Shown here: piece by piece, positions 46,732-56,949 of the stretch | Layout: each line of letters begins with the position of its first letter | Position numbering within the stretch: position 1 is the first letter of the stretch | Origin: a bacterium | Lineage (GTDB): Bacteria > UBA8248 | Length of the DNA stretch: 64,000 nt | Reading direction: 5' to 3' | Assembly (NCBI GenBank): GCA_022828125.1 | Contig: JAJEJD010000024.1 | Location: forward strand, 124,001-188,000 | Notes under the pieces: model-generated | Seen by the model: only the letters and a program-made list of their open reading frames with translations | What the model was told of the DNA's origin: nothing | The model's database searches: none | Program-made: the position numbers and the translations under genes

Positions 46732-47880
46732 ATGTACAGCATACGCCACCCGAAACGAACCTGGTTCGGCCTCGGAACCATAGCGAAAATCAAGGATGAA
46801 GCGGCGTTTTTAGGCGCCCGCAACGCGCTTTTCTTCACGGACAAGGGTGTGCGGGGCGCAGGCGTAGCGGACATGGCATTGGCTCCTCTCGAAGAGGCCG
46901 GAGTGCAAGTCACGATTTACGATGAGTGCCCGCCCGAGCCCGCCATCGGCGATCTCGAAAGTGCATATAATGAATTCAAAAACAACACTTTCGACCTCGT
47001 CGTCGGGGTCGGGGGCGGCAGTTCGATGGACATGGCGAAATCCATCGGCGTATTACTTGGCAACGAAGGCGCACCCAGGGATTATCTGGGCATAGAGCTC
47101 GTGCCGAAACCGGGCCTCTCCACCATCCTGGCGCCCACGACGAGCGGAACCGGGGCCGAGGCCACACCCAACGCCATCTTCTCGGTGCCGGAAGAACAGG
47201 TGAAACTGGCCATCGTGAGTACGCACGTCATCCCGTTCGCCGCCATCGTGGATCCCAATCTCACGCTTTCCGCACCGCCGAAAGTCACCTCCGCCGCCGG
47301 GGTGGACGCCTTCACGCATTGCCTGGAAACCTACGTGGCCAGAAACGCCACGCCCTTGAGCGAGATGTACAGCCTGGAGGGCATGAAGCTCATCGCCCGC
47401 TCCTTGAGGCGCGTATGTGACGACGGAAGCGACATCGAGGCAAGAACCGACATGGCCCTGGGTTCATACTATGGCGGCGTCGCGCTCGCAGGAGCCGGGG
47501 CGGGCGCCATTCATGCACTGGCGTATCCGCTCGGCTCGCGGTTCCACATTCCCCACGGGGTCAGTAACTCACTGATGTTTTCCCACGTCATGAAGGAAAA
47601 CCACGCGGCGGCGCCTGAGAAATTCGCCCGCATCGCCCGAATCCTGGGCGAATCCACGGATGGCATGTCCACGGCTGAAGCCGCCGAGCTTTCCGTCGGC
47701 GCGGTCGAGAAACTTTGCCGCGATTGCGGGGTGCCTACCCGGCTCGGCGAAGTGGACGTGCCCGCACACGCCATCCCGGAGTTGGCCGAAGCCGCTTTCA
47801 AGCTGGAACGTCTTTTAAGCTGTAACCCCAAAGAACTCACGCTCGAAGACATCGAGAGAATCTATCGCGCCGCGGCTTGA
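46732..47880 (+). CDS. Iron-containing alcohol dehydrogenase
   Basis: This 382-residue group III dehydrogenase oxidises primary alcohols or reduces aldehydes with NAD(P). The nucleotide-binding GVGGGSSMDMAKSIG lies near residue 88. PTTSGTGAEATPNAIF and GVDAFTHCLETYVAR contain metal ligands, and GAIHALAYPLGSRFHIPHGVSNSLM has the His residues of the metal site. AAGGAG precedes the ATG by eight bases. The YqeC-like gene begins almost at its stop. Confidence 0.94.
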   Translation: MYSIRHPKRTWFGLGTIAKIKDEAAFLGARNALFFTDKGVRGAGVADMALAPLEEAGVQVTIYDECPPEPAIGDLESAYNEFKNNTFDLVVGVGGGSSMDMAKSIGVLLGNEGAPRDYLGIELVPKPGLSTILAPTTSGTGAEATPNAIFSVPEEQVKLAIVSTHVIPFAAIVDPNLTLSAPPKVTSAAGVDAFTHCLETYVARNATPLSEMYSLEGMKLIARSLRRVCDDGSDIEARTDMALGSYYGGVALAGAGAGAIHALAYPLGSRFHIPHGVSNSLMFSHVMKENHAAAPEKFARIARILGESTDGMSTAEAAELSVGAVEKLCRDCGVPTRLGEVDVPAHAIPELAEAAFKLERLLSCNPKELTLEDIERIYRAAA

Positions 47881-47882
47881 AG

Positions 47883-48668
47883 ATGCCCATGGAACCATTT
47901 TCTTCGCAAAAGCTGCGCCCGCTGATGGACATCGCCCCCGGAGACATGGTCTGCGTCATGGGCGCCGGCGGCAAGGCCACGCTCATGAAGCGCCTCATCC
48001 GGGAGATGCTGGATGAGCCGTATCCCGTCATCATCACCAGCACGACGAACCTCCACGCCCTGGGAGTCGAAGACGCGCCGCCGGTGCTGTTGAGCGAGGA
48101 GGGACGCGCTGAACTGCAATCCGTCGCTCAGGATTGGTCGGGGCGCGGCGCCGTCGTCTGGGTGGAGAAAAAACTGCCCCAGAACATGTTTCGCGGCCTC
48201 GAGGCGAGCCAGGTGGAGGCTCTGAGCGCCTCGGGCTTTCACGGTGTGATGGTCGTAAAAACGGATGGCGCGAGGAAACGGCTCATCAAGGCCCCGGGAC
48301 CGGGTGAGCCGGTCATACCCCAAGGAGCGACACATTGCGTACTCGTGCTGGGACTCGCCGCAATCGGTCGAAATGCGGATGAGCGAATCGTCCATCGCAT
48401 AGAAAAAGTTCACTCCATCGCAGGCTTGGCGGCCGGGGAAGTTATTGAAGCGCATCATCTGGCGAAATTGGCGAGTCATCCGGAGAGCTACCCGAGCCGG
48501 TTTCCCGAAGGCGCAAAGCGGATACTCTACCTGAGCCATTGCACTTCCCAAGAAGCCCTTCAGGAAGCTCAAACGATATTCGAGGCCGTACCCGACGGCA
48601 TTTACGATTACCTGCTCACGGGAGATTCCGTTGCGGGAAATTTTTATCGCAGGGGGCAAAACGAATGA
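47883..48668 (+). CDS. yqeC: YqeC-like selenium-dependent hydroxylase accessory protein
   Basis: This protein of about 261 residues is similar to YqeC, which co-occurs with selenium-dependent molybdenum hydroxylases and is presumed to help their maturation. The N-terminus has a P-loop-like GDMVCVMGAGGKATLMKRL. Family stretches include PVIITSTTNLHAL, GVMVVKTDGARKRLIKAPGPGEPVIP and THCVLVLGLAAIGR. The start could be ATG at 47883 or the TTG at 47877 overlapping the dehydrogenase stop; neither has a clear ribosome site. It overlaps the next M20 gene (ATGA). A molybdenum hydroxylase lies 6 kb downstream. Confidence 0.82.
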   Translation: MPMEPFSSQKLRPLMDIAPGDMVCVMGAGGKATLMKRLIREMLDEPYPVIITSTTNLHALGVEDAPPVLLSEEGRAELQSVAQDWSGRGAVVWVEKKLPQNMFRGLEASQVEALSASGFHGVMVVKTDGARKRLIKAPGPGEPVIPQGATHCVLVLGLAAIGRNADERIVHRIEKVHSIAGLAAGEVIEAHHLAKLASHPESYPSRFPEGAKRILYLSHCTSQEALQEAQTIFEAVPDGIYDYLLTGDSVAGNFYRRGQNE

Positions 48669-53016: not shown

Positions 53017-53209
53017 GGCGTCCCCCGATCAATCAAGAACGAAACTACGACATTGATAATGAAGCACGAGCATCATGATAGGCAACGGCAATCCATCTTT
53101 AGGAACCCTTTCATCTATATGAGGAAACATTCAAAGATTTTAAGCGCCTCTCTTGCGCAATTCTCCTGTGCTTGAGAACCTCTTCCCCCCATCTTCAGAG
53201 GAGGACGCC

Positions 53210-53809
53210 ATGAGTTGGATTCAACCCATTTCCCCGGATGCCGCGGAGGGAGCCACAAAAGAAATCATCGAAGGCCTGCGCAAGACGGGAAAACCCATTC
53301 CCAAGATGTTTCTGGAAATGGGCAGGAGGCCCGATATTCTGGCGGGGCGTGAAACGCTCCGCCGCGCCGTTCATGGCGGCTCGAGCCTCGGTACGAGGCG
53401 GGCGGAGTTGCTCGCTTTCTACGTGGCGGCTCACGGGGGGTGATACGGCTGAGCGATGAACCACGGGCAGTTGTTCCGTGACGAATGCGATGACGCCTCT
53501 ATCGCCGAAGTAGCCGAGGTGCTGGACGACCCGAAGCGAGCGGGAATCCTCGACCCAGCGGACCGCGCCATGCTCACGTATGCGGAGAAGTTCACCCACA
53601 CGCCTCACTCGATGGAAAAAACGGACATCGAAAGTCTGAGGGTCTCCGGCTTCAGCGAGGAGAACGTCGTGGACATCATCGCGGCCGTCGCCTACAGAAA
53701 CTTCGCCAATTCGATCAACTACGCCTACGGGCACGTGGAGCAGAATCCCCAAGGACCCGAAGAGTTGCAGGCCGCCATCGAGAGGTTGAAAAAGAAGATC
53801 CGTGGCTGA
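53210..53809 (+). CDS. AhpD-like/CMD-family protein with predicted double selenocysteine (UxxU) active site
   Basis: One frame of 199 residues is interrupted by UGA at codons 78 (53441-53443) and 81 (53450-53452). Read as selenocysteine, the centre is E66-x11-U78-Y-G-U81-x3-H85. AhpD peroxidases have E-x11-C-x-x-C-x3-H, with the two Cys as peroxidatic and resolving residues. Both flanks fit the carboxymuconolactone decarboxylase/AhpD family: ISPDAAEGATKEIIEGLRK and TRRAELLAFYVAAHGG before, AMNHGQLFRDECDD, YAEKFTHTPHSM and FSEENVVDIIAAVAYRNFAN after. AGAGGAGGA lies before the ATG. A SECIS-like hairpin follows. Selenocysteine decoding is inference; a double stop mutation exactly at both Cys positions is less likely. 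Confidence 0.82.
53462..53480 (+). promoter_or_regulatory. Candidate bacterial SECIS hairpin
   Basis: CACGG (53462-53466) and CCGTG (53476-53480) form a 5-bp perfect stem around the nine-base loop GCAGTTGTT, which contains GU dinucleotides. The stem begins 9 bases after the second UGA and 18 after the first; bacterial SECIS apical loops lie about this far behind the UGA. One hairpin could serve both codons. The stem is short and no lower stem is convincing. Confidence 0.5.
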
Positions 53810-54545
53810 CAAATCACGCGCCCTCTCATCCATCTCGTATCTGGGCCTGTTCATATCGGGCGTCTGCGCGCTGGCCGCCGTGGCGTCGGGGCTGGGCCAT
53901 CGCTGGGGGCTATGGCATTTCAGCACGGGGTTCCAGATTTTCAAAGCGGCATCCGTCATCGCGCTGCTCTCCGTGGCCGTCTCCATGGCGGGAGGCTTGT
54001 TCGCTTTGCGTGACGCGTCAAGACGAAAAACCCTCTGCGCCGCGCTCGGCATCGCACTCGGCTTCATCGTTGCGGGCTTTCTCCACGCGCACATGCAGAT
54101 CGCGAGACGGGTGCCCAAGATTCACGACATCACGACGGACACCCGAAACCCGCCCGCCTTTCAAGCCGTTCTCCCGCTCAGAAAAGGAGCGAAGAACCCG
54201 CCTACCTATGAGGGCATACGCATAGCCCGGCTCCAGAAAAAAGCGTATCCGGATATCAAACCACTTACTTTCCAGACTTCAAAAGAAGAAGTTTTCAAGC
54301 GCGCTCTTGCCGCCGCACAGGCCATGGGCTGGCATGTGGTGTCGTCCAAGCCAACCGAAGGACGCATCGAGGCCTACGACACGACTTTCTGGTACGGCTT
54401 CATCGACGATATCGTCATACGGATCACGTCGAGCAGCGGAACGACGCGCCTCGACATCCGATCGAAATCCCGCGTCGGCGTCGGGGATATCGGCGAGAAC
54501 GCCAGGCGGATACGCGGCTTTTTGGAAAAGCTGAAAGTAAGATAA
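53802..54545 (+). CDS. DUF1499 membrane protein
   Basis: This 247-residue protein has three membrane helices (about 11-30, 41-63, 76-93) followed by a DUF1499 domain. Motifs are KIHDITTDTRNPPAFQAVLP, RLQKKAYPDIKPL, ALAAAQAMGWHVVSSKPTEGRIEAYDTTFWYGFIDD and TRLDIRSKSRVGVGDIGENARRIRGFL, all typical. The start is GTG at 53802, overlapping the end of the AhpD-like gene by eight bases, so the two are translated together. The DUF1499 role is unknown. Confidence 0.87.
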   Translation: MADKSRALSSISYLGLFISGVCALAAVASGLGHRWGLWHFSTGFQIFKAASVIALLSVAVSMAGGLFALRDASRRKTLCAALGIALGFIVAGFLHAHMQIARRVPKIHDITTDTRNPPAFQAVLPLRKGAKNPPTYEGIRIARLQKKAYPDIKPLTFQTSKEEVFKRALAAAQAMGWHVVSSKPTEGRIEAYDTTFWYGFIDDIVIRITSSSGTTRLDIRSKSRVGVGDIGENARRIRGFLEKLKVR

Positions 54546-54621
54546 ACTCAAATATGCCAATTTCGTGATCGAGGACTCGTCAAGAAACGATAATGTCTTG
54601 AACATCATGATGAGGGCGCAA

Positions 54622-56949
54622 ATGTCTGAATATCAGGTTCTGGGCAAATCCATACCGAGACTCGACTCCGCAGAGAAGGTCTCCGGACTCGCCGATTTCG
54701 GCGATGACTTAAGGAGACACGGCTGCCTCACCGCGAAATTGCTCCTGAGCCCGCACCCCCACGCCGAGATCAAGAAAATCGACACCACAGACGCCTTGGA
54801 GGTTCCCGGCGTACACGCCATCGTCACGGCGGATGATTTTTCCGGCATCCGCCACGGCAGGCTCGTGCGCGATGAACCGCTGCTCGCCATCGACAAGGTG
54901 CTTTACGTCGGCGAACGTGTGGCCGCCGTGGCCGCCGAAACCCCCGAAGCCGCGCAAGCCGCTCTTGAGAAAATTCATGTCGATTACAAGGTGCTCCCCG
55001 CCGTTTTCACGACGGCCGACGCCATGAAGGACGACGCGCCACTACTGCATGACACGCTGGATGATTACGCATCATATCCGGGCATCGTGCGCTACGGGAA
55101 CGTGGCCGCCGATATTCTCATTCGCTCGGGCGATCCCATAGAAGCCGCGCTCGCGCGCGCGGATTTCGTATTCGAGGACGAGTACGAAACCCCCCGCGTT
55201 CACCAGAACTATCTCGAGCCCCGCGCCATGCTCGCAGAGCCCGGACCCGAGGACAGCACGATAGTCTATTCGCCCACCCAGGGAGCTTTCGTGGTGCGCG
55301 CCATCGCCTCGGAAATTCTCGAACTCCCCATGAACAAACTGCGCGTCGTGAGCACCCACGTGGGAGGCGCGTTCGGCGGCAAATCCCAACATCTGATGGA
55401 AGCCCTGGCCGTTCTTTTGAGCAGAAAGTCGAACCGGCCCGTTCAACTGACGCTCAATCGCGAGGAGGAAACCATCACCGGAAACCCGAGGCACGCTTAC
55501 CGTATGCGCTATCGCACAGGCGTAATGCGGGAAGGGAAAATCGTCGCGCGCCACGTGCAAATCACTTCGAACAACGGCGCCTATTGTATGACGGGGCCGA
55601 TGGTATTGGGCAAATCCTGCTACACCAGCGCGGGGCCATATAAGATTCCAAACGTCAGGGTGGATGGCTTGCTCGTGTATACGAATCTTCCGCCCAGCGG
55701 CTCCTACCGGGGATTGGGCGTGGCGCAGGTCGCTTTCGCCTGCGAGCGCCATACCGACCGCATCGCCTCGGAACTGGAAATGGACCCGCTTGCCTTTCGA
55801 ATCCTCAACGGGATGGATGAAAACGACGAGGACCCCGCAGGCACGATTCTGCAGAGCGTAAGCATCAAGGAAACGCTCGAGCGCGCGGGGAAGAAGGCGG
55901 GCTGGGGGAAGCAGAAAAAAGAAAACCAGAATAGCAGAATCAGGCGGGGGATGGGCATCGGCTGCGCTCGCTATCCCACGGGCGGGGGAGCGTCGGGCGC
56001 CGTGGTGAAGGTGAACGAGGACGGGGGCCTGGCCGTGCTGGCCGGATGCGCCGATCTCGGTACGGGCGCGGCTACCGTGATGGCGCAGGTGGCGGCGGAG
56101 GTTCTTGGAGCCGAGGTCCAAAAGGTGAGCGTCCGCATCGCCGACACCGAAAACACGCCCTTCGACGCCATCTCTGCGGGCAGCCGGACCACGTTCAACA
56201 TGGCGCACGCCGTGCGAATGGCGGCGGAAGACGCCTGCGAGCAAATGCTTCGCCAGGCGGCGCGCATGCTCGAATCCTCCCCGGAAGACTTGGAGATAGG
56301 CGAGGGAAACATATTCGTGCGCGCTGCGCCATCGCGCGCCATCGCGTTCACCGATGTAGCGCATTCGGCCGTATGGAAAGGCGACGGCCCCGTGACGGGG
56401 CGCGGCGCCTACCGCGGGGAGAATCCCCCCCACCGCACGGACAACGTGCGCGGCCACCCCGAACCCTCGAGGCCCGGGCCGGAATTCGCCACCCAGATCG
56501 CCGAAGTCGAAGTCGACACCGAGACGGGAGAAACCCGGGTGCTGAGAATCACCAGCGCGCAGGACGTGGGCTTCGCCATGAACCCCCTCACCCTGAACGG
56601 ACAGATAGAGGGCGGCATCGCCCAGGGACTTGGCTGGGCGCTCGCCGAGCAGATCCACCACGAAGAGGGCTTCATCGCCCACGCGGATTTCGAGAGTCAG
56701 CTCAACCCCACGAGTCTGGACGTCTCGGAAATTGCAAGCGTGATCGTGGAATCGCCCGACGTGGAAGGCCCCTACGGGGCCAAGGGGGCGGGAGAGATGC
56801 CGCTCATTCCGGCGGCGCCTGCGATTGCGAACGCGATAGCGGATGCTATCGGGGACCCGGCAAACCCGAACCTCAACACGTTGCCGATTGCGCCGGAGGA
56901 CGTCGTTCGCGCAGTTCGAGAAAAAAGCGCCGCCGGATCGATTTCCTAG
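54622..56949 (+). CDS. Molybdenum hydroxylase large subunit (xanthine dehydrogenase/CO dehydrogenase family)
   Basis: This 775-residue molybdopterin-binding subunit is of the CoxL/XdhA family. The N-terminal aldehyde-oxidase hammerhead domain (SIPRLDSAEKVSGLADFGDD, LEVPGVHAIVTADDF) precedes the Moco domain. That domain has HVGGAFGGKSQHLMEALAVLL, PPSGSYRGLGVAQVAFACERH, GSRTTFNMAHAVRMAAEDAC, and the catalytic-Glu motif GAKGAGEMPLIPAAPAIANAIADAIG near the end. ATG at 54622 has GATGAGGG upstream; a GTG at 54565 and ATGs at 54607-54610 are also in frame. FeS and FAD subunits are absent from the neighbourhood. A YqeC-like gene upstream suggests a possible selenium-dependent form. Confidence 0.92.
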   Translation: MSEYQVLGKSIPRLDSAEKVSGLADFGDDLRRHGCLTAKLLLSPHPHAEIKKIDTTDALEVPGVHAIVTADDFSGIRHGRLVRDEPLLAIDKVLYVGERVAAVAAETPEAAQAALEKIHVDYKVLPAVFTTADAMKDDAPLLHDTLDDYASYPGIVRYGNVAADILIRSGDPIEAALARADFVFEDEYETPRVHQNYLEPRAMLAEPGPEDSTIVYSPTQGAFVVRAIASEILELPMNKLRVVSTHVGGAFGGKSQHLMEALAVLLSRKSNRPVQLTLNREEETITGNPRHAYRMRYRTGVMREGKIVARHVQITSNNGAYCMTGPMVLGKSCYTSAGPYKIPNVRVDGLLVYTNLPPSGSYRGLGVAQVAFACERHTDRIASELEMDPLAFRILNGMDENDEDPAGTILQSVSIKETLERAGKKAGWGKQKKENQNSRIRRGMGIGCARYPTGGGASGAVVKVNEDGGLAVLAGCADLGTGAATVMAQVAAEVLGAEVQKVSVRIADTENTPFDAISAGSRTTFNMAHAVRMAAEDACEQMLRQAARMLESSPEDLEIGEGNIFVRAAPSRAIAFTDVAHSAVWKGDGPVTGRGAYRGENPPHRTDNVRGHPEPSRPGPEFATQIAEVEVDTETGETRVLRITSAQDVGFAMNPLTLNGQIEGGIAQGLGWALAEQIHHEEGFIAHADFESQLNPTSLDVSEIASVIVESPDVEGPYGAKGAGEMPLIPAAPAIANAIADAIGDPANPNLNTLPIAPEDVVRAVREKSAAGSIS

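Follow-up and report, generated by a model that had tools for sequence, protein, structure and literature searches.

A predicted AhpD-like selenoprotein with UGA codons at both redox cysteine positions in marine Nitrospinota

Two short open reading frames of 77 and 117 codons follow each other in the same frame in a 64,000-nucleotide stretch of DNA (the window) from a member of the marine, often sponge-associated Nitrospinota, and are separated by two TGA codons with only TAC GGC between them. This raises the question of whether they are remnants of a broken gene or parts of one gene in which both UGA codons are translated as selenocysteine (Sec). An earlier note on this DNA proposed an AhpD-like protein in which both Cys of the CxxC redox motif are replaced by Sec (UxxU). 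Sequence comparisons indicate that positions 53210-53809 very probably encode such a full-length selenoprotein, whereas the activity of the protein can be assigned with less confidence.

Reading frame, family and fold

The frame comprises 199 codons from an ATG at 53210 to a TGA at 53807-53809. Both short frames were found as the note had described them, and their read-through product has the 199 residues and the motif E66-x11-U78-Y-G-U81-x3-H85 that it had reported. UGA78 and UGA81, which fall exactly on the two Cys positions of the motif, are the only stops within an otherwise intact frame, and standard gene callers cut the gene in two. The features of the coding region are as follows.

53199-53204, plus strand: Shine-Dalgarno sequence AGGAGG 5' of the start codon (from the sequence)
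53210-53809, plus strand: predicted AhpD-like (TIGR01926) selenoprotein gene, 199 amino acids with U78 and U81 (from homology and conserved UGAs)
53405-53407, plus strand: Glu66, corresponding to the proton-relay Glu of AhpD and lying 12 residues N-terminal to the first Cys position (from alignment)
53441-53443, plus strand: UGA78, predicted to encode Sec in place of the resolving Cys (from sequence and alignment)
53450-53452, plus strand: UGA81, predicted to encode Sec in place of the peroxidatic Cys, where CxxU relatives likewise have Sec (from alignment)
53462-53464, plus strand: His85, invariant active-site His, whose codon also lies in the 5' arm of a hairpin (from an alignment of 35 sequences)

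An antisense open frame of 307 codons (53195-54118, minus strand) was also observed and is probably a side effect of the high GC content of the coding sequence.

With Cys placed at both Sec sites, the protein scores 87.6 bits against the TIGR01926 profile, just above the cut-off of 81.8; with the Sec columns masked (X) it scores 72.7 bits, under the cut-off, and is therefore a divergent protein. It is likewise divergent from the Pfam CMD model PF02627 and falls outside it (19.3 bits, E 0.0012, below the gathering score of 23 bits). Alignment of 35 homologous sequences places Cys or Sec invariably at columns 78 and 81, as the proposal of a Sec pair had implied, and His invariably at column 85. 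The predicted structure (pLDDT 94.4) adopts the all-helical AhpD fold, and its nearest structural neighbours are the AhpD-like proteins 6k40, 2prr and 3c1l (TM 0.73-0.78 and E 8e-8 against 6k40).

Conservation and origin of the UGA pair

Taken at face value, two stops in one frame of a draft genome could reflect a decaying or mis-assembled gene, its UGAs being genuine stops or errors in the sequence. Relatives were collected by searching 60 other genomes and by scanning public genome contigs. The double-TGA gene (hereafter UU gene) is present in 11 genomes, namely that of the window, six congeners (genus g1, 84-91% identity) and four genomes of a second genus (53-54%). In all 11, most of them released as individual MAGs, the two TGAs occupy identical columns and there is no further in-frame stop, which excludes chance. 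Random stops and frameshifts in close relatives, which the note had named as evidence against its claim, are absent: the genes contain no internal TAA or TAG and no frameshift, and the Shine-Dalgarno sequence is conserved, the other ten UU genes having a comparable purine-rich site ahead of their start codons. Among the seven congeners pN/pS is 0.16 before the UGAs and 0.24 after them, far under 1, and the downstream part is therefore selected as protein. The ten related genomes rule out a pseudogene or an assembly error, and we consider the chance that the locus is decaying or mis-assembled to be negligible.

A TIGR01926 search of about 490 genomes returned, among the matches listed, UxxU members from the same 11 genomes only, and viral contigs yielded no relatives of the gene. 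Most of these genomes also carry, at a different locus, a paralogue of the same family (CYGU; L027-L032 and L020) that shares 48% identity with the UxxU protein and has Cys (TGC) at the first position and an in-frame UGA at 81. The window sequence TGA TAC GGC TGA and the paralogue sequence TGC TAC GGC TGA are thus one base apart. In a tree of 55 proteins the UU genes form a single clade (97/88), which is joined to the CYGU paralogue (100/100) and nested among CxxU selenoproteins, the family otherwise having CxxU or CxxC. Because the clade is nested in this way and the CYGU paralogue is its closest relative, the tree points to a secondary replacement of the resolving Cys by Sec, with a single origin through TGC to TGA in a CxxU ancestor.

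At least eight TIGR01926-like genes occur in the window genome (G000), several with one in-frame TGA (for example C15:424074, C30:31716, C15:52003 and C29:85770), and a similar expansion was observed in most members of the family. Three TIGR01926 matches in other genomes contain an internal TAG or TAA (G440:C155:9256-9705, G012:C79:65422-65925 and G013:C136:13000-13506) and are possible pseudogenes.

The gene neighbourhood is partly shared between the two genera. ThiL, ThiE and a multihaem cytochrome are common neighbours in g1 genomes; within the stretch examined in the second genus, ThiL/ThiE are present in 2/3 records and the cytochrome in 2/3, which suggests that the UxxU genes of both genera are orthologous. 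Downstream, g1 genomes have a DUF1499 gene and also a molybdenum hydroxylase subunit, while g3 has a different membrane protein.

53802-54545, plus strand: gene for a DUF1499 membrane protein, overlapping the selenoprotein gene at its 3' end (next to it in 7/7 g1 genomes)

Decoding of the two UGA codons

The genome encodes the complete Sec machinery that the earlier note had proposed to look for: one high-scoring tRNA-Sec (75.9 bits, anticodon UCA), selB (384.5 bits) and selA (575.9 bits) adjoining on contig C30, and selD (334.9 bits). The selD gene has one in-frame TGA (L049, G000:C30:4116-5078), and its product, the Sec donor enzyme, is probably itself a selenoprotein. A YqeC gene (47877-48668) and a gene for the large subunit of a molybdenum hydroxylase (54565-56949) lie some 6 kb apart. 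YqeC is associated with selenium-dependent molybdenum hydroxylases, and the two genes possibly represent an additional use of selenium in the same organism.

In-frame UGAs in several genes of one genome might also mean that the organism reads UGA as one of the standard amino acids. The internal UGAs examined fall on redox Cys columns, and the Sec machinery is accompanied by a SECIS-like hairpin, both of which argue against a general reassignment. Moreover, UGA terminates the UxxU gene where 5/6 congeners have TAA at the same codon or one codon further on. With this agreement between the terminal UGA and the congeners' TAA, codon reassignment is rejected for practical purposes as extremely improbable, and Sec is the preferred reading of the internal UGAs.

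A hairpin following the UGAs, which the note had also reported, was located as follows.

53462-53480, plus strand: SECIS-like hairpin CACGGGC-AGUU-G-u-UCCGUG with its loop at 53469-53472 (from folding and published bacterial rules)

Bacterial SECIS elements are expected to have a loop of 3-9 nt whose first or second nucleotide is G, a stem of 4-16 bp, a distance of 16-37 nt from the UGA and an MFE of at most -7.5 kcal/mol (PMC13188914). The hairpin agrees with these rules in its loop (AGUU) and in its distance from both codons (16 nt after UGA81 and 25 nt after UGA78), and one element can therefore serve both UGAs. Its energy of -7.6 kcal/mol (27-nt segment) is below the threshold by a small margin and is ordinary in comparison with shuffled sequences (z 0.18). 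No match to the region was obtained with Rfam SECIS models, and changes in the hairpin pairs among related genes were one-sided only, with no two-sided compensation. A separate hairpin for UGA78 between the two UGAs is impossible in a gap of only 6 nt.

Synonymous variation among the seven congeners is reduced over this region: it affects 1/10 degenerate conserved codons in codons 79-90 and 73/118 elsewhere (Fisher p = 0.0018, a guide only, as the sequences are related and the test ignores phylogeny), and, of all 12-codon windows in the gene, the one beginning at codon 79 varies least. Across the family, a hairpin satisfying the loop-G rule follows the motif in 11/11 UU, 20/27 CxxU and 1/17 CxxC genes; counted as distinct hairpins, the proportions are 15/21 and, for CxxC genes, 1/17 (p = 5e-5, which again ignores phylogeny and serves as a guide only).

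It could be argued that UGA81 alone specifies Sec, as in the relatives with a single UGA, and that UGA78 is regulatory or poorly read, so that the main product is a 77-residue fragment and the full-length protein is rare or conditional on selenium. Sec insertion is generally inefficient, and a single hairpin has to serve two UGAs that start 9 nt apart. Against this, UGA78 occupies an invariant Cys column and no UU relative has a fixed sense codon there, the two codons that separate the UGAs (79-80) show no synonymous change among the seven congeners, and the loop spacing suits both UGAs. Decoding of UGA81 only therefore seems improbable, though less so than decay or reassignment.

In the preferred reading, ribosomes would start at ATG 53210, SelB and Sec-tRNA(UCA) would read UGA78 and then UGA81, probably directed by the single downstream SECIS hairpin, and translation would finish at UGA 53807. 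Sec insertion at both sites is inferred from the UGA pair at invariant Cys columns, the Sec machinery, the hairpin and the ten relatives, which together bear out the central proposal of the note that both active-site Cys are encoded by UGA.

Probable chemistry and comparison with known systems

In AhpD the second Cys is peroxidatic, the first Cys is resolving and a Glu takes part in proton relay. By homology, Sec81 would attack peroxide or another oxidised substrate, His85 would serve as relay, Sec78 would resolve the product to an intramolecular diselenide or a selenenyl intermediate, and a cellular reductant would restore the diselenol centre. Formation of the diselenide is inferred by analogy. 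A peroxidase-type activity is, on balance, the favoured assignment: the closest solved structures are annotated as AhpD-like or peroxidase-related, and the protein retains His85 and the pair equivalent to CxxC.

The E-x11 part of the motif holds for the window protein, which has Glu66, and is not universal in the group: the relay position is Gln in 3/11 UU proteins (L016, L017 and L019, from genomes G008, G012 and G016), as against Glu in 27/27 CxxU and 16/17 CxxC proteins. Since the relay Glu is Gln in these three, there is room for changed chemistry, and peroxidase chemistry may differ in UU proteins. The same substitution, the presence of the debrominase Bmp8 among the structural relatives and the lack of a partner gene fixed in both genera favour a full-length UxxU protein that uses the AhpD fold for something other than peroxide reduction, such as a disulfide/diselenide reductase, a reductive dehalogenase-like enzyme or a metal(loid)-handling protein. 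A reductase partner was sought in the gene neighbourhoods of both genera, and no convincing candidate was found. Such a non-peroxidase role is rather unlikely given the annotations and intact active site described above. Returning to the UxxU protein as a whole, we tentatively suggest, with less than even confidence, that the AhpD fold occurs here in a diselenol version, that one SECIS serves both UGAs, that the need for the relay Glu is relaxed and that the reaction is shifted rather than being that of a faster AhpD.

To our knowledge, few natural enzymes have Sec at both redox residues, and all of them belong to other folds. The UxxU gene and its CYGU paralogue, together in most of the same genomes, offer a clean natural pair for comparing a diselenide with a selenenyl-sulfide, and the gene provides a compact example in which to study how a single bacterial SECIS could manage the decoding of two neighbouring UGAs.

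The note had regarded UxxU as a form not established in this family. This stands for AhpD/CMD selenoproteins, which are CxxU with one Sec only in surveys from 2005-2026, including the TIGR01926/COG2128 proteins of the Sargasso Sea and GOS (PMC1088965; PMC2398784; PMC13188914), and does not extend to the motif itself, which is known from other families. The novelty thus concerns the AhpD/CMD form only, and its priority is not certain, the search having covered open-access literature. The CxxU proteins resemble the window protein in family, in Sec at the second (peroxidatic) position and in a SECIS-like hairpin directly downstream, and differ in having Cys at the first. Mycobacterium tuberculosis AhpD (1gu9, 1knc), a remote profile match to the window protein (E 9.5e-5), and the Deinococcus radiodurans AhpD-like protein 6k40 share the fold and the E-x11-C-x2-C-x3-H pattern, with Cys where the window protein has Sec. 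A UxxU redox motif with two Sec is likewise present in SelL, for which a diselenide is described (PNAS 2007, as cited in PMC2398784), and in Prx-like selenoproteins (PMC9312934); their thioredoxin/peroxiredoxin fold is unrelated to the all-helical AhpD fold. UxxU is also found in the FmdB family, in metal-binding NF041115 and in SELENOW of amphioxus and Ostreococcus (PMC13188914; PMC7539508), which have a short redox or metal motif as here in different folds and families, and of these SELENOW has undergone a similar change from CxxU to UxxU.
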